Virus record (IMG/VR): IMGVR_UViG_3300050120_000437
Location: 1-22,034 of that record
Reading direction: 5' to 3' (one strand)
Length of the DNA stretch: 22,034 bases
Origin: a virus
Shown one piece after another: positions 1,000-22,034 of the stretch (position 1 is the stretch's first letter; each line of letters starts with the position of its first letter). Below the pieces are notes generated by a model. It did no database searches. It saw only the letters and a list, made by a program, of their open reading frames with translations, and was not told the DNA's origin. Made by a program: the position numbers and the translations under genes.

Positions 1000-1270
1000 A
1001 TGAATGTATTAGTTGGGTTTAAAAACAAGCTATTTTCGGACGAATTTGCGATACCTGATTTTTTATCTCAAAAATACATCCCCTCATTAGATGGTTTAAG
1101 AGCCCTTTCTATACTTGTGGTAATAGTTGCTCATGTAAACACCAAATTTAGCAACTTAATAGTTAGGCACATTGTTAACGGTGGCCTTTTAGGCGTTCAT
1201 GTGTTTTTTGTGATAAGCGGTTTTTTGATCACAAGTTTGTTGATCAGAGAAAAAGTGGGCAATAAAAGGC
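1000..1270 (+). pseudogene. Acyltransferase-3 family protein, 3'-truncated
   Basis: The N-terminus of an integral membrane O-acyltransferase of the acyltransferase-3 (OafA/YrhL-like) family, which transfers acyl groups to surface polysaccharides or similar acceptors. The sequence shows PSLDGLRALSILVVIVAH, which contains the family's R-x10-H signature, then a second membrane segment with GVHVFFVISGFLITSLL, a strong family motif. About 85-90 residues are family-like, up to roughly LIREKVGNKR. Homologues are usually about 350-400 residues with around ten membrane segments. Here the frame enters unrelated sequence near 1270 and stops at 1326. The downstream sequence, on the other strand, is the 3' end of a phage connector gene, so the gene was cut by the rearrangement that placed the phage cluster here. 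The missing part is not in the window. Confidence 0.85.
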
Positions 1271-1720
1271 TACAGATTGAATCTCCTTATCAGATATTTG
1301 AGTTGAAAAATCAACCGTCTTTTTAACAAAGCCCGATTGGGTCGACCGCACATTATCGTTCCGCACAAACCTGGCGTAGCTTAAATAAACCAGCACCGGC
1401 TTTAACCCCGCGTATATTTTGGTGGTGATGCTTTGATCGGGCCAGGTGTAGTTGTAACTGGCGCCGTTCAATAGTTTTTGAAACCAAAGCTCATCGGTGC
1501 TGGCTTGGTATGGCGATTGATCTGTTTGCGCGGCGATACCCGCGTTATAGCTCGACAGGTATTTAATCATATCGAAATACAAACGTTTACCCAGCATGTT
1601 GCTCAGATCTATGCGCTGGGCCTCTAAAATAAAAGGCTCCAGGCGCTTACTATCGTCCATATTAACGGTTAGGTTGCGGTACGCCGCGAAGTCGGTTTTG
1701 GTTATGAGTAAGGATTCCAT
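1244..1720 (-). CDS. Phage head-tail connector-like protein (DUF6712-like), probably 3'-truncated
   Basis: A 158-residue frame directly downstream of the portal gene. It begins MESLLITKTDFAAYRNL and contains LEPFILEAQRIDLSNMLGKRLY and LKPVLVYLSYARFVRNDNVRST. This pattern resembles the DUF6712-type proteins of Bacteroidetes phages and prophages, which I take to be head-completion or connector proteins. The segment ending SDKEIQS looks native. The last nine residues, VAFYCPLFL, look foreign because they are the antisense of the acyltransferase gene. The protein therefore probably lost its C-terminal 40-60 residues at the junction and may not work. The family name is from memory of similar sequences, and the exact role is inferred from its position after the portal. 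Confidence 0.65.
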   Translation of the reverse strand: MESLLITKTDFAAYRNLTVNMDDSKRLEPFILEAQRIDLSNMLGKRLYFDMIKYLSSYNAGIAAQTDQSPYQASTDELWFQKLLNGASYNYTWPDQSITTKIYAGLKPVLVYLSYARFVRNDNVRSTQSGFVKKTVDFSTQISDKEIQSVAFYCPLFL

Positions 1721-3142: not shown

Positions 3143-3664
3143 TTAATTATTTTCAATCATGTCATCCTTAGCTATTTGTAATATTGCCTTGTTGCTCTGC
3201 TTTTGTGCGGTTGCCGCGCTATCGCTTGCAATGGCACTGGCTGCTGGGGCATCTGCCGGTGCTATTACTTTGGTTCCTGCCACTTCCCCCGAAGGGTATC
3301 GTTCAAAGTGTTGTATTAGCGCGGGGTAGGTTTTGAGTAGTTTTTTGGCGGCTTCGTCTGTTAGGTTATCGTTGGTGAGGGTATCGCCGCCGAAGGTTGT
3401 TTGCAGGCTGCGGCCGGGTTTTAGCAGGTACTCACGTTTGGTTAATGTCATGTTATTTAAGGGTTGGTTCTGTTGTTGCAGGTACAGGTATTTTTGTATG
3501 CGATAAAATGCTTTTTGATAGCAATTGCCGCAACCCTGCTGTATAGTTTGGTTAAACAACTCGCGGTAAACCTGGTTGAGCAGGCTAATGGCTTCGGGTT
3601 GGCGTTGCGCTATTTGCGATGCCGAGTTGAGCAGTTGGGTTACCTGGGTGCCGGGTGTTTGCAT
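3143..3664 (-). CDS. Small phage virion-cluster protein of unknown function
   Basis: 173 residues. The N-terminal half is helical and Gln-rich and contains GCGNCYQKAFYRIQKYL, with a Cys-x2-Cys pair that might bind metal or form a disulfide. The middle has TKREYLLKPGRSLQTTFGG, then NLTDEAAKKLLKTYPALIQHFERYP. The last pattern (asparagine-Leu-Thr-Asp-Glu, helix, hydrophobic end) recurs in small head-region proteins of Bacteroidetes and Mu-like phages. The C-terminus is an Ala/Ser-rich tail. The gene lies between the putative tube protein and the portal, which suggests a head or connector role, but I cannot name it. All start and stop features look intact. Confidence 0.55.
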   Translation of the reverse strand: MQTPGTQVTQLLNSASQIAQRQPEAISLLNQVYRELFNQTIQQGCGNCYQKAFYRIQKYLYLQQQNQPLNNMTLTKREYLLKPGRSLQTTFGGDTLTNDNLTDEAAKKLLKTYPALIQHFERYPSGEVAGTKVIAPADAPAASAIASDSAATAQKQSNKAILQIAKDDMIENN

Positions 3665-7391: not shown

Positions 7392-7476
7392 TGTCATTGC
7401 GAGGAACGAAGCAATCGCACAGAAGCAAGATGGTTGTGCAAAGTTCGCGATTGCCACGCTATCGCTCGCAATGACA
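7392..7476. repeat. Palindromic repeat family B, copy 2
   Basis: Starts TGTCATTGCGAGGAACGAAG and ends CGCTCGCAATGACA. One of five family B copies. It lies between the HTH gene and the head-operon promoter box. Confidence 0.85.
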
Positions 7477-9121: not shown

Positions 9122-9523
9122 ATACTAAAAAAATTAGTTTCTTGTATTTTGCTCATGTTTTGCAGCATCACTTTGTTTTGCAGGCTGGCCTGTACATCTT
9201 CAACCACTAAAACCTGGCGGGCATGTTGGCAGCCATGGTTTTAACCATGTTGTTCATAGCGCGGGTATTGGCTAAATCGTTCGAGCCATCGTTTAGGGTA
9301 TTGCTGCCGTTAAACAATCCGCCCTGGGCGTAAGCGCCCGAGCCAACTGCGCTAAACGCCACCCCGCCGCCAGCCTGGTTAATAGCCGACAGGATAGGCG
9401 CGAACATTTGTGTAGAGCGGGCATTAATAACCGATTCGCCGTTGCTGAGGCGTGTATTAATGCTATCGCTTGTACCCGTACCCGGCCCGGTAAGGTAAGC
9501 ACCCATACCATCCGACTGGAATA
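9122..9523 (-). pseudogene. Second, frameshifted copy of the tape-measure 3' end
   Basis: This segment aligns along its whole length with 10168-10570, the 3' end of the tape-measure gene, at about 95% identity over its coding part. The only length difference is one missing G near 9230 (GGCGGG against GGCGGGG). It shifts the frame, so the chain ends ...NMPARF instead of continuing ...NMPRQVLVVEDVQ. The start of the matching part has no upstream tape-measure sequence, so it could be read only from the internal Met at 9506. With the shift repaired, the copy would end with a different C-terminus (MSKIQETNFF...) from the intact gene. Most of the roughly 15 substitutions are synonymous. Only Thr/Ala and Met/Ile changes are seen before the shift. 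Confidence 0.85.
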
Positions 9524-9530
9524 ATCAGTT

Positions 9531-10004
9531 TTAAAAATCATCATTGGCTGCTTTTTTGATACTATTCGCCAATGATGCCATTATGTTTTTGAAGCCAGCA
9601 TCAAATAAATATGCGTTTTGATGATCCATTTTGTTTTTTGATTTTTTAAGATCGTCGTTATATCCTTCTAAAGGCCAGGTATCATCATAGAGTATATCAT
9701 ACAGCCGTATTCTGTATTTATTGTCTTTGCAATCAATTTGTATTTTAAAAATAAACGTATAATCATTATTAACTCTAAAAAGGGCGCGAAATTCGTCAGA
9801 TTTTTGGAAACTGCCTTTGCCCAAAATTTGCCCTTGTTCCTTATCGGTACTCAGTATTCCCCCAGTTTTACTATTAAAATAATCAAGCATCCATTTATTA
9901 GCCGCATTAAAAATAAAGTCTTTGGTTTTTCCTGATACGTCAACTATACTTTCATAAGTTATCTTGCCATGTGTAATTGCGGTTTTAAATTCATAACAAT
10001 AACA
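9531..10004 (-). pseudogene. DUF4468-domain protein, 5'-truncated
   Basis: The open frame runs from just below a stop codon at 10005-10007 to the stop at 9531. The first Met is at 9890, but the frame upstream clearly encodes protein: YESIVDVSGKTKDFIFNAANKW continues into MLDYFNSKTGGILSTDKEQGQIL and GKGSF. This is the start of the DUF4468 (TBP-like fold) domain found in exported Bacteroidetes proteins, which normally follows a signal peptide. No signal peptide or start codon is present, and a strong terminator hairpin lies immediately upstream. The 119-residue reading from 9890 would lack the first strand and helix of the domain. I judge it a fragment brought in with, or cut by, the tape-measure duplication. 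Confidence 0.7.
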
Positions 10005-10015
10005 TTACTCAAAAA

Positions 10016-10052
10016 ATACAAAATGCCCGATGTTTAGTTGGGCATTTTGTAT
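10016..10052 (-). terminator. Rho-independent terminator downstream of the tape-measure gene
   Basis: A perfect 13-base stem (ATACAAAATGCCC at 10016-10028, complement at 10040-10052) with an 11-base loop. On the minus strand it is followed by a run of T (TATTTTTTG overlapping the stem end). It would end transcripts coming from the tail genes. The stretch 10053-10187 shows no gene. Confidence 0.75.
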
Positions 10053-10167
10053 TTATACACTTGCTTTATTAGGTTTCTGACCTATATTTGAAACAAGGGT
10101 ATGAAAAATATATTTTATCTGGTGTAAAGTAGTATGTCATTGCCACATTTTAATATCGCAATATAAA

Positions 10168-10570
10168 ATACTAAAAAAATTAGCTTTTTAAAAGTTGCTC
10201 ATATTTTGCAGCATTACTTTATTTTGCAGGCTGGCCTGTACATCTTCAACCACTAAAACCTGGCGGGGCATGTTGGCTGCCATGGTTTTAACCATGTTGT
10301 TAATGGCGCGGGTATTGGCTAAATCGTTCGAACCATCGTTCAGGGTATTGCTGCCGTTAAACAAGCCGCCCTGGGCGTAAGCGCCCGAGCCAACGGCACT
10401 AAACGCCACCCCGCCACCAGCCTGATTAATAGCCGACAGGATAGGCGCGAACATTTGTGTAGAGCGGGCATTAATAACCGATTCGCCGTTGCTGAGGCGC
10501 GCGTTAATGCTATCGCTTGTACCCGTACCCGGCCCGGTAAGGTAAGCACCCATACCATCGGATTGGAATA
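10168..10570. repeat. Direct repeat of the tape-measure 3' end (intact copy)
   Basis: 403 bases that match 9122-9523 in the same orientation, about 95% identical over the coding part, separated by about 640 bases holding the DUF4468 fragment. The homology starts in the A-rich sequence after the tape-measure stop and ends near codons for FQSDG. Confidence 0.85.
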
Positions 10571-11618
10571 TACCACCGCGGGCTTTACCTTGGGTTGGAA
10601 CACTTGGTACCGTGAGGCTATTAATTTTAGTTACTTGTTTAGCTCCATCGGCAATAGCGGTAGCAACTTCAACAGCGCCAATGGCAATATCAACGGCGGC
10701 CAATGCCGGCCCAATAATAGGCACCAGCATATCTTGATTTACAGCTGTAGCAGTAGCTGAAATATAAGATGATACCTGCTGCTCTGTATTAATAGCAATT
10801 TCGACGGCTGTGAACAGTTTTTTTGCCTGAACAGCCTGCTTGTTTGCCTCGGTATTTTTACCAAACAAGCCTATTATGGTATTAGTACTCTTTAGATAAG
10901 CAGAGTCTCTTGCAGAAAGGATTAGTGTTTCCTTATCAACCGCAACCTGTGTGGTTTTGACGTAGTTATTAAGGGCACCTTGTGTGTCTTTAATGGCACC
11001 TTGTACATCTGTAAGGGCGCGCTTAAACAAATTTGTTTTTGCAGTCTGAGCGGTAAGATCTACAGTTGGTAGATTTTGTTTAGAAGGATCATTGGTCGGG
11101 CTGCTTTGTGGAAAAGCAGAGGCTGGTACAGTACCTGCTAATGCCCCAGTAACTGAATCCGTAACATCCATAGGTGCCGCGGTTGATTGTAGCTGCGGCG
11201 ACCGTTGCGCATTCGGGTCTATACTCTGCGAAGTGTCAGTTGCCGATGTATCCTGCACACTCAAAGGCGGTAAAGCACCCTGAATCAACTGCGGCGACCG
11301 TTGATTGCTTGTACCATCACCCGGAGTTGCTCCAGCCCCTTGCTGTGTAACCTTGTTATCGGCCTGTTCGGCTTGTGTTTTTTTGGTTAGGGCGGCGGTG
11401 TAGGCTTGCAGGGCAGTGGTGCTGTTGGTTAAATCGGTGGTGGTGGTTTTAAGCTGATTGCTTAATGTTGTAAATGTGGGCGTGGTATCCTGCCCGGCAG
11501 CTTTCAGGGCCTTTAGCTGGTCGGTTAGCGCGCTTACGGCGGTTTTGGCGGTAGTCACGCTTTGGTTTAGCGCGGTGGTATCAATATCAATGCTGAGGGT
11601 TTTTTTTGTTTGATCCAT
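10188..11618 (-). CDS. Tail tape-measure protein
   Basis: 476 residues. The N-terminal 80 residues are Thr/Ala/Leu-rich helices (LSIDIDTTALNQSVTTAKTA and onward), followed by a Pro/Gln/Ser/Thr-rich linker (about 90-200) in which the unit QRSPQL occurs twice. A helical section and a hydrophobic stretch near 295-325 (IIGPALAAVDIAIGAVEVAT) come next, as in tape-measure proteins that insert into the host membrane. The C-terminal part carries TGPGTGTSDSINARLSNGES followed by VINARS, a version of the tape-measure motif DSI-x-A-x-LS-x-GE-x-VINA. The protein sets tail length and assists DNA entry. At 476 residues it is short, suggesting a fairly short tail. It follows the 665-residue tail gene by 136 bases. 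Confidence 0.75.
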   Translation of the reverse strand: MDQTKKTLSIDIDTTALNQSVTTAKTAVSALTDQLKALKAAGQDTTPTFTTLSNQLKTTTTDLTNSTTALQAYTAALTKKTQAEQADNKVTQQGAGATPGDGTSNQRSPQLIQGALPPLSVQDTSATDTSQSIDPNAQRSPQLQSTAAPMDVTDSVTGALAGTVPASAFPQSSPTNDPSKQNLPTVDLTAQTAKTNLFKRALTDVQGAIKDTQGALNNYVKTTQVAVDKETLILSARDSAYLKSTNTIIGLFGKNTEANKQAVQAKKLFTAVEIAINTEQQVSSYISATATAVNQDMLVPIIGPALAAVDIAIGAVEVATAIADGAKQVTKINSLTVPSVPTQGKARGGIFQSDGMGAYLTGPGTGTSDSINARLSNGESVINARSTQMFAPILSAINQAGGGVAFSAVGSGAYAQGGLFNGSNTLNDGSNDLANTRAINNMVKTMAANMPRQVLVVEDVQASLQNKVMLQNMSNF

Positions 11619-17957: not shown

Positions 17958-18398
17958 TCAGGGGATTAAGGGGCACACCGCATAGCCGCTCTTATCCCGT
18001 AAGGTTATCATGGTGAGTACGCCGCAAACGGCCATATCAAACTTGTAGTACAGGTGTTTGAATTGGATTTTGGACACCTCGTCGTACTGGCGGGTTTGGT
18101 TAATGCGGGCTACGTATTCGATGGCCAGGTCCTTCATTTGTTCGGCAATGGCGTCTTGCTGATCGGTGGTTAGGTCGATGTCGGCATTCTGACAAAAGAA
18201 CAGGAACAGCGGCCATGTTTTGCGTGCCGCGCCGGTGGTTGCCGAAAGTTCGGCGCCGGAGTTTACCACCGTTTGCACATGCAGCATCGGGAAAACGGCA
18301 TCATCGGCCTGCATGTTGGCCTCGTAATCGGTTCCGTAAAAAAAGGAGGCGATGGAGGTTTGGTTAGTGGCAATGGTTTGGAGGAAATCCTTTATCAT
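17958..18398 (-). CDS. Small head-tail protein, possible tail terminator
   Basis: 146 residues with a helix at the N-terminus (MIKDFLQTIATNQTSIASFF), then FPMLHVQTVVNSGAELSATT, a W-P-L-F-L-F-F strand, a long acidic helix (TTDQQDAIAEQMKDLAIEYV), and a C-terminal strand pair with two Cys. The alternation of helix, strand and long helix, about 145 residues, recalls tail-terminator or tail-completion proteins. Similar short proteins accompany gp10-like genes in Bacteroidetes prophages. It is followed by the gp10-like gene, the reverse of the usual order. The role is inferred from pattern and context. Confidence 0.5.
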   Translation of the reverse strand: MIKDFLQTIATNQTSIASFFYGTDYEANMQADDAVFPMLHVQTVVNSGAELSATTGAARKTWPLFLFFCQNADIDLTTDQQDAIAEQMKDLAIEYVARINQTRQYDEVSKIQFKHLYYKFDMAVCGVLTMITLRDKSGYAVCPLIP

Positions 18399-18455: not shown

Positions 18456-18541
18456 GTGTGATTGTGAGGTACGAAGCAATTGCGAACTATGCAAATCCGC
18501 TCTGCTTCCGTGCGGTTGCCACGCTATCGCTCGCAATGACA
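18456..18541. repeat. Palindromic repeat family B, copy 4
   Basis: TGTGTGATTGTGAGGTACGA at the left (degraded end), CGCTATCGCTCGCAATGACA at the right. It lies between the chaperone extension and the 146-residue gene. Confidence 0.75.
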
Positions 18542-18566: not shown

Positions 18567-18824
18567 CTAACCCTCTTTCGCCGCCTCCGCATATCGTTTT
18601 TGATACTCCATGCGTTCGCGGTTCATTAGTAGTTTGATGATGGTACGTTCGTACGATTGGCTCAGTACGGCGTTCCATTTGGTGATGTCGAAATTGGCCA
18701 GGGTATCGATGCTCAGCATCCAGCCAAACTGGTTTAGTTTTGATGCGTTGGCGCGCTGTTCATCGGGTGTGGCGGGGCGGTACAGCAGTTTGCTTTGCTC
18801 GGCTATAAGGCTGGATACTTCCGA
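18567..18824 (-). CDS. -1 frame extension of the putative tail-assembly chaperone
   Basis: An open frame of 85 codons that begins exactly where the 188-residue frame passes the T10 run at 18824-18833. It reads SEVSSLIAEQSKLLYRPATP, then NQFGWMLSIDTLANFDITKW, and ends EYQKRYAEAAKEG before TAG. It has no start codon suited to separate translation, and its protein-like character (Trp/Lys helix patterns, acidic end) fits a C-terminal part joined to the upstream frame by a -1 shift, as in the gpG-gpGT pair of lambda-like phages. The joined product would be about 267 residues. A one-base length change of the T run would have the same effect. Confidence 0.65.
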   Translation of the reverse strand, partial: SEVSSLIAEQSKLLYRPATPDEQRANASKLNQFGWMLSIDTLANFDITKWNAVLSQSYERTIIKLLMNRERMEYQKRYAEAAKEG

Positions 18825-19369
18825 AAAAAAAAATTGGCAATGGGTATGGCATCCGCTGCCGGCATGCTGAGTATTTGTTGCATGTAGGCTCCGTTCTCAA
18901 TTTTTTCGTCGTTGTAGGGCACGTCATCGCCCATTAGGGGCAACCAAAAATAATGCGCCAGCACTTGCGGAATGCTGTCGGTAGGGTCAAAGTCGGCGCC
19001 CGATTCGGCGCAGCGTTTATGCTCTTCGGTAATGATGTTGTGTACAGCTATAAAGGCACCTACGGGTTCAATTTTGAGATTTTTGGGTACCCGAACGTTT
19101 TTGCCGGCTATGGTGGTTTGTTTGGGCAACTTTTGGGTTGCTAAACCAAGCGCTAATTTTGAGCCCAGGTTGCCAAGTAGTACCTGGCATTTTTGCAAAT
19201 CGGCGCGGCCCTTAAAGTTCGAGATCGTTTCGCGGTCAATCCCCGTAAGGGTACAGATCTCGTCTAACACGCCTTTTGACTTGCGCAGGGCCAGGAATTG
19301 CTCAAGGCTGATCTCGTGAACCTCGGTAGGGAAGTTGTAAGGGGTTCCGTTTAGTTTAATGGGAAGCAT
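18803..19369 (-). CDS. Putative tail-assembly chaperone, N-terminal frame
   Basis: 188 residues, starting MLPIKLNGTPYNFPTEVHEI then SLEQFLALRK, LTGIDRETISNF and later DSIPQVLAHYFWLPLMG. The P-T-E-x-H-E-I-S-L-x-Q-F opening recalls Bacteroidetes-phage proteins that occupy the tail-assembly chaperone position. Such proteins are made in a short and a long form through a programmed frameshift. Here the frame reaches a run of ten T, reads Phe-Phe-Phe, then stops soon after (RKYPAL). The -1 frame continues for 85 codons. The gene is the first minus-strand gene after the terminase apart from the plus-strand island, and it does not adjoin the tape-measure gene, which is unusual for a chaperone. If it is not a chaperone it is still a phage protein of unknown role. 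Confidence 0.55.
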   Translation of the reverse strand: MLPIKLNGTPYNFPTEVHEISLEQFLALRKSKGVLDEICTLTGIDRETISNFKGRADLQKCQVLLGNLGSKLALGLATQKLPKQTTIAGKNVRVPKNLKIEPVGAFIAVHNIITEEHKRCAESGADFDPTDSIPQVLAHYFWLPLMGDDVPYNDEKIENGAYMQQILSMPAADAIPIANFFFRKYPAL

Positions 19370-20690: not shown

Positions 20691-22034
20691 CTACCTCCTC
20701 ATCAACCTTTCCCTTTCCGGCAGCAGCCGCGGAACACTACGCACATCGGTTTTTTTGCGGAAACCGAAACGGGCGCGGCCGGTGATGATGCTGCCCGTGC
20801 CGAGGCAAAGTTCGGTGGCGGCCCATACCAGGGCATCGATCCGGTTGGGCGATTTTTTGGCGCGCCGGGCTTCCCAACTCGTCATCTCCAGTTCCAGCTC
20901 CAAAAGCTGATCGATGTGGTGGGCCTTGCCTTGCTCGTAAATGGCGGCAATGGGTTCGGCGCGGGTAAGTTTATCGCGCGTGGCGTGTACGCCTTTGTAG
21001 CTCACCCGGGTTTCTACGTTGCGCAGTACGGCCTCTATCAGGTCGCCACCGTTGTTTACTTCGCCAATGATGCGGTCGGCGCGGTAGTGGTTGTATAGGG
21101 CAATGGCCCGGTTGGCCCATTCGGTGGGGCTGTAGCTCCCGGTTGCATCGTCCAAAACATATAAATGATTGTCGAAACCTAATCCGGCCACGATAATGCC
21201 CGTTTCGTCTGATGTATCTTTGCTGCTCACGGCGGGGTCAATGGCTATCACAATGCGCTTTAAACTCACGGGCAGCGTGCCATCGGGGTTGCGTTGCAGG
21301 CGGGTTCCGTTCAGCAGGTCGTCTGTCCAGAGGGCGCCCTCGCTGTCATCGCTAAACTCCCCATCGCGAAAGCGTTGCCGTTTGCGCAGCGGCAGCGAAT
21401 CCAGCGTGTCCAAATAATCTTTACTAATGTTGGCTATGTTTTGGTCGGGATTCATTTTGAGCCATTGGTAGCGGGCAGGAGTGAGGGCGGTGTTGCTTTC
21501 CGGATCGGTATGCTCCACAAAAACCCGGTATAGCCAGTGTTTTTTTGATGGTGGATTGGCATCAATAAACAACTGCGGCTGCACCCTGCTTATTTTTTGC
21601 GCCAGCCGGGTTTTAATAATGGTGTAGGTATTGTACGAGATCTGACTGGCTTCGTTCAAAAACACGGTTAAAAATTCCATGCCGAGGATCTTCTCGGTAC
21701 GGTCCTTATCATCTAAGCCGGCAATCCAAATTTGCGATCCATTCTCTAACTCCAAATAATAATCGGTATTGCGCCACTTAATGTTCACATCCGGAAAGCA
21801 AAGGCGGGTTACTTTCTTCAGCGTATCTAACCAAATGGAGTTTTTGGCATGGTTAAACCTGAGCCGCGCAATTAAGTGCCGTGAGCCGGGATGCTTTACC
21901 GCCAGCTGCAACTGCTGGTATATAATAATGAACGATTTGCCGGAGCGGCTGCCGCCAACCAACAAAAACTCTTTGGCCTGGGTGCCGAATAGTTTGGTTG
22001 CTTCGGTTTGGATAGGGGTTTTTTTGAATGTCAT
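20691..22034 (-). CDS. terL: Terminase large subunit
   Basis: The motor and nuclease of DNA packaging, about 447 residues. The N-terminal ATPase has Walker A GGSRSGKS (residues 27-34), a Walker B-type strand LTVFLNEA (catalytic Glu near 129, with Asn at the usual Asp place), and a coupling motif LFIDANPP (near 157-163). The C-terminal RNase-H-like nuclease has acidic residues at IAIDPAVSSKDTSDETG (near 267), IIGEVNNGGD (near 326), and SPNRIDALVWA (near 401). The wording of these nuclease segments is close to terminase_6C proteins such as gene-transfer-agent gp2. The protein seems complete from the window's last base and would be the first gene of the cluster. No small terminase gene is visible. 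Confidence 0.9.
   Translation of the reverse strand: MTFKKTPIQTEATKLFGTQAKEFLLVGGSRSGKSFIIIYQQLQLAVKHPGSRHLIARLRFNHAKNSIWLDTLKKVTRLCFPDVNIKWRNTDYYLELENGSQIWIAGLDDKDRTEKILGMEFLTVFLNEASQISYNTYTIIKTRLAQKISRVQPQLFIDANPPSKKHWLYRVFVEHTDPESNTALTPARYQWLKMNPDQNIANISKDYLDTLDSLPLRKRQRFRDGEFSDDSEGALWTDDLLNGTRLQRNPDGTLPVSLKRIVIAIDPAVSSKDTSDETGIIVAGLGFDNHLYVLDDATGSYSPTEWANRAIALYNHYRADRIIGEVNNGGDLIEAVLRNVETRVSYKGVHATRDKLTRAEPIAAIYEQGKAHHIDQLLELELEMTSWEARRAKKSPNRIDALVWAATELCLGTGSIITGRARFGFRKKTDVRSVPRLLPERERLMRR

Follow-up and report, generated by a model that had tools for sequence, protein, structure and literature searches.

The stretch of DNA analysed here (hereafter, the window) is an IMG/VR virus record of 22,034 bp, in which a minus-strand gene changes reading frame at a run of ten T residues. 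The first-pass annotation of the window had described a 188-residue frame that passes through this run and ends six codons later, followed by a -1 frame that stays open, and had proposed a programmed -1 shift in a tail-assembly chaperone. The features under discussion are as follows.

18803 to 19369, minus strand: zero-frame ORF of 188 aa with an ATG start, the short form of a probable tail-assembly chaperone
18824 to 18833, minus strand: T10 slip site with two in-phase T_TTT_TTT heptamers inside it; T10 is conserved in L005, L008, L009, L010 and other loci
18567 to 18833, minus strand: -1 frame, encoding a C-terminal extension of 85 residues past the T run; stop codon at 18567-18569
18834 to 18893, minus strand: sequence 5' of the T run, with neither GGAGG at -19 nor significant structure (fold z-score -0.30)
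20691 to 22034, minus strand: terminase large subunit (Pfam PF04466 and PF17289), upstream of the frameshift gene
17958 to 18398, minus strand: next gene downstream, 146 aa, phrog_33245, syntenic across the family
10188 to 11618, minus strand: tape-measure protein, shortened relative to its homologues; not adjacent to the frameshift gene in the window, adjacent to it in L038 and L049

The T run and the stop codon lie exactly, to the base, where they had been described, and the zero frame at the slip site reads ...GCC AAT TTT TTT TTT CGG AAG TAT CCA GCC TTA TAG. Translation bore out the remainder: the -1 frame is open for 85 codons (SEVSSLIAEQ...AAKEG), and the zero and -1 frames joined give a protein of 267 aa. 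T10 is the longest homopolymer of the window, the runners-up being two runs of 8 nt.

The window also codes for a terminase, a ClpP-like head protease, a portal and a tape measure, and the order TerL - frameshift gene - g146 - g161 - g597 - g665 - tape measure - protease - capsid - portal is kept in most of the contexts examined. An acyltransferase-like N-terminal fragment, judged from its translation (1000-1326, plus strand), overlaps the end of a DUF6712 gene (1244-1720, minus strand), and positions 1000-1720 are likely a host/prophage junction. Because of this junction, and because no integrase or lysis genes were recognised in the window, we may be dealing with a remnant or a cut element. 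Several relatives have a tape measure of 719-1,055 aa; that of the window has only 476 aa, and an almost unaltered second copy of its C-terminal part lies at 9207-9506 (region 9207-11618). A 22-nt repeat, ATTGCGAGCGATAGCGTGGCAA, occurs in three minus-strand copies with 0-2 mismatches (3211-3232, 7451-7472 and 18516-18537), the last of them just after the frameshift gene.

Conservation of the split gene

Homologues were sought in 400 Sphingobacteriaceae genomes and in IMG/VR contigs. They were found in 89 of the 400 genomes, nearly all matching as two pieces in different frames that meet near residue 180, and split homologues were also present on more than 70 IMG/VR contigs. The direction is -1 in all 84 intact genome junctions and in all 71 viral split junctions; three loci (L052, L053 and L166) are decayed. 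The slippery heptamer T_TTT_TTT, noted earlier at the join in the window, is in phase there and in every distinct junction, comprising 135 with distinct flanks and four held-out ones (139 altogether). In each of 80 genes at no more than 95% identity, both slip-site Phe codons are TTT and the preceding codon ends in T, while TTC makes up 27% of the Phe codons elsewhere in the same genes.

A frame break at a homopolymer could also reflect a sequencing error or a recently fixed indel in a gene that is truly one frame, or in a pseudogene. Homopolymers are error-prone, and the window prophage looks incomplete, with its shortened tape measure and the likely host junction at its left end. However, T10 and the break recur in genomes that are independent of each other and far apart in synonymous distance, and both frames are subject to purifying selection. 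In the nearest relatives (62-71% identity), T10 and the frame break are the same; one of them is Mucilaginibacter sp. PPCGB 2223, which is 67% identical over the joined protein. Synonymous distances to these relatives are mostly near or beyond saturation. A comparison of five T10-clade members gave dN values of 0.15-0.28 and dS values mostly exceeding 1 for either frame; with dN/dS well below 1, purifying selection acts on both in the window's clade. The best-conserved part of the family is the -1 domain itself, with a mean column identity of 60% in the alignment. The error or indel reading, raised in the first-pass annotation and here rejected, is by these comparisons already refuted for the family, and we give it next to no credence.

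A second alternative is that the C-terminal part is a separate gene whose translation begins at a start codon of its own, through coupling, with no frame transition at all. The two ORFs do overlap, and translational coupling is common in phage operons; yet the junctions inspected show no conserved -1-frame start codon close to the overlap, homology starts at the T run, and distant relatives encode the domain within one ORF. We therefore regard two separate genes as very improbable.

The distant relatives comprise eleven loci (L111, L183, L190-L197 and L241) in which the C domain lies in one open frame of 176-262 codons that lacks the T run. One of them, in Elizabethkingia phage TCUEAP1, is a 180-aa ORF annotated as hypothetical that directly follows the terminase. 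This phage was the sole match to a C-domain query among phage GenBank records, and a tblastn search of these records with the joined protein gave no match. A fused form is thus found as an ordinary gene, and having two forms characterises the sphingobacterial branch. That these distant loci have the fused form alone is a point against the two-form explanation. A continuous frame was seen in distant relatives only; close homologues with one frame and no homopolymer, which had been named as grounds for abandoning the shift, were not encountered.

In most relatives, the slip is followed by a further 40-60 or so codons of zero frame, the beginning of which is conserved (YPNLSKPK..FW; alignment A2; L013-L036). 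This extended tail creates about 15 dual-coding codons, and it has been lost in the window's clade. Synonymous constraint downstream of the slip (codons +3 to +17) was considered as a possible signal and rejected, being accounted for by dual coding with the YPNLSKPK-type tail.

Because the split is conserved, is -1 everywhere and is accompanied by selection on both frames, error and pseudogene formation can be set aside, and the transition is almost certainly a programmed -1 event. The earlier proposal of a programmed -1 shift is thus strongly supported by conservation, the shift site and T run having been retained across Sphingobacteriaceae relatives when the joined protein was searched for in other prophages.

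Relationship to tail-assembly chaperones

The position of the tape-measure gene bears on function. At L038, a second copy in genome G307, the stop codon of the -1 ORF overlaps the ATG that starts a tape measure of 1,055 aa (TAATG); at L049 (G160) the tape-measure gene is directly adjacent, on the other side than in L038. In the window it lies about 7 kb from the frameshift gene, and it is non-adjacent in most relatives too. As in chaperones of the G/GT type, the gene consists of overlapping ORFs with a conserved frameshift, which by sequence is predicted to yield short and long proteins.

Profile and fold searches were less specific. No named chaperone family was among the Pfam or PHROG matches. 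The AlphaFold model of the 188-aa part has a mean pLDDT of 87, and that of the C domain is poor (pLDDT 65). A Foldseek search of BFVD with the 188-aa part returned mostly uncharacterised phage proteins, including one of Nonlabens phage P12024S, and a single "Tail assembly chaperone protein" as a weak match at rank 34 (E 2.3e-3, TM 0.34). The PDB fold search gave nothing at E<=0.001, and VIA-align no Z of 5 or more. Two-form expression and tape-measure adjacency at L038 and L049 therefore suggest a chaperone of the gpG/gpGT kind, and we consider this role probable. The earlier naming of the gene as a tail-assembly chaperone accordingly holds as regards its two-form behaviour and its neighbours in two relatives, while no sequence profile names it so.

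The comparison with lambda gene G extends to the layout of the products, a short zero-frame protein and a longer -1 protein with an extra C-terminal domain, and to the -1 ORF abutting the tape-measure gene in L038. Unlike lambda, the slip site here is all T, there is no match to a chaperone-family profile, and the tape measure is several genes away in the window's lineage.

Two classes of slip site

In the 135 junctions with distinct flanks, the T run has 7 T in 82, 8 T in 13, 9 T in 34 and 10 T in 6. All 95 runs of 7-8 T are preceded by a GGAGG element at a distance of exactly 19 nt, compared with three of the 40 runs of 9-10 T; the other 37, the window among them, are without it at that distance. 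Stated the other way, runs without the element are never shorter than 9 (37/37 at 9 or 10), and runs with it are 7 or 8 long in 95 of 98 cases. Another long run, that of L180, has GGAGG at a different place. Four distinct junctions obtained afterwards fit the same dichotomy.

Codon choice within the element was examined next to the amino acids it encodes. Codon -10, which supplies the first G, is ACG, ATG, GTG, CTG, AGG or GCG, always with G in third position for all six amino acids concerned, and the Glu codon within GGAGG is GAG in 95 of 95, where GAG makes up 30% of Glu codons. Across 84 genome loci, synonymous conservation is raised at codons -12 to -4. Judging from this codon usage, GGAGG is maintained at the nucleotide level.

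In the protein tree, many of the deep branches have long runs and no element, and the T7/T8 runs with the element fall into one clade. Inside that clade, L129 has gone back to T9 and lost the element. On the same tree, L095 has T9 with the element kept, and L178/L187 have T9 with a separately gained GGAGG. The coupling between run length and element is not statistically significant on the tree, because only about three character changes are implied.

Some loci, mostly of the T7/T8 clade (L042-L049 and L202-L207), lie in a compact element with TerS, TerL, the frameshift gene, and tail, head and tail-fibre-like genes, in some cases with a lysozyme-like gene, with what look like host genes on either side. 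Visual inspection of the flanks that were read revealed no integrase, and G301, G090 and G325 share an identical gene set on one flank. Such an element could be a domesticated prophage or a gene-transfer agent.

Candidate stimulatory elements

In the T7/T8 clade, the flanks of GGAGG can pair as GGGUA/UGCCC, which places GGAGG in a loop and ends the stem 11 nt before the heptamer. Pairing is possible in 97.6% of the alignment cells, and covariation from GC to AU is seen at one pair in four rows. The full stem is present in 86 of 98 sequences, compared with 9.4 when synonymous codons are shuffled, counts that are inflated by relatedness. Single-sequence folding of the hairpin was not significant. 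This moderate support is suggestive only of an upstream hairpin around GGAGG; to our knowledge, the upstream element of this clade has no lambda counterpart.

The 3' end of the hosts' 16S rRNA carries CCUCC, complementary to GGAGG; it was found by a covariance model search, after two pattern searches for the tail had given no match. Internal Shine-Dalgarno (SD) stimulators of bacterial -1 frameshifting share this complementarity. Unlike them, the element stands 19 nt from the run, outside the reported ranges of 9-14 nt (PMC5009743) and 6-17 nt (PMC4066793), and the anti-SD is sequestered in Bacteroidia ribosomes (PMC9976891). A classical elongation SD was rejected on account of this spacing.

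A stem-loop or pseudoknot downstream was also considered and discarded, as MFE z-scores in 69 sequences showed none just 3' of the site and RNAalifold found none. In the window, no stimulatory element was found either upstream (z -0.30, no GGAGG at -19) or downstream (z 0.62).

Discussion

The frame transition is secure; the machine that slips is not. Runs of Tn with n>8 have been described as sites of programmed transcriptional realignment, a threshold that does not come from Bacteroidota; such realignment can take the place of ribosomal frameshifting, and vice versa, dnaX being an example (PMC3711429). The window's T10 exceeds 8 T, as do the runs of at least 9 T in all 37 element-free junctions, and the window equally contains the in-phase heptamer of a -1 ribosomal frameshift (X_XXY_YYZ). 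Any T9 or T10 run contains such a heptamer, and the window by itself cannot separate the two mechanisms.

We propose that normal decoding would yield the 188-aa short form and slippage at the run the 267-aa form with the conserved C-terminal domain. As with lambda gpG/gpGT, the short form would act on the tape measure, which the long form would connect to the tail tube protein. In the window's lineage (T>=9, no element), RNA polymerase may add a U within T10, so that part of the mRNA reads into the -1 frame. In the T7/T8 clade, the run would be too short for the polymerase and the ribosome would slip on U_UUU_UUU, helped by the conserved upstream GGAGG, possibly in its hairpin loop. A hairpin behind the ribosome, for which the 5' stem-loop of gene 60 is a precedent (PMC5009743), would be one way round the 19-nt spacing problem; in the derived clade, a cis hairpin and/or GGAGG may stand in for the SD duplex on Bacteroidota ribosomes with a hidden anti-SD.

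The main competing explanation is ribosomal -1 frameshifting throughout the family, tRNA-Phe re-pairing on U_UUU_UUU and T9/T10 being merely slipperier and needing no stimulator. It agrees with the invariance of the in-phase heptamer, with the two such heptamers held by T10, and with the usual mechanism of this gene class (PMC5009743). Seven T would suffice for a heptamer, however, and yet element-free runs never have 7 or 8 (37/37 at 9 or 10), although the T7/T8 clade tolerates Tyr or a TTC-encoded Phe at the same place; and no downstream structure was found in the window or over the family. We consider a ribosomal mechanism throughout possible but doubtful. The first-pass annotation took the slip on the heptamer to be ribosomal; a lineage with T>=9 and no upstream element fits transcriptional slippage at least as well. 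For the window itself, transcriptional slippage is rather likely the main mechanism.

Since the run is never below 9 without the element, is mostly 7-8 with it, and the published threshold is n>8, one gene with one slip site may have used two machines: polymerase slippage at T9/T10 without the element, probably ancestral, and ribosomal slippage at T7/T8 with GGAGG in a derived clade, where the change was undone at least once (L129). This history is put forward tentatively. The explanation as a whole, a probable tail-assembly chaperone made in two forms by a programmed -1 transition at the T run, with slippage mainly by RNA polymerase where T>=9 and by the ribosome at T7/T8, seems to us reasonably likely.

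There are precedents for each component. For dnaX, one orthologous gene is reported to use ribosomal frameshifting in E. coli, where an upstream SD stimulates it, and transcriptional slippage in Thermus (A9) (PMC3711429, PMC5009743); here, in contrast, the change, if real, took place at one site in one phage gene family of one host family, and element and run length change together. A long T or A run likewise opens a second frame and gives two protein lengths in Shigella mxiE (Tn, n>8) and Citrobacter tssM1 (A11) (PMC3711429, PMC4256274), where slippage was demonstrated experimentally, whereas the present case is a phage tail gene known from its sequence.

Frameshifting tail chaperones are already known, and no report of this family was found in the papers searched. 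Its slip sites amount to a natural experiment, in which run length and an upstream element change together within one gene. They open two questions to direct tests: how one kind of slippage, transcriptional or ribosomal, takes over from the other, and whether Bacteroidota ribosomes can use an internal GGAGG during elongation despite a sequestered anti-SD. They also provide a rule for annotating both halves of the frameshift gene in many prophages.
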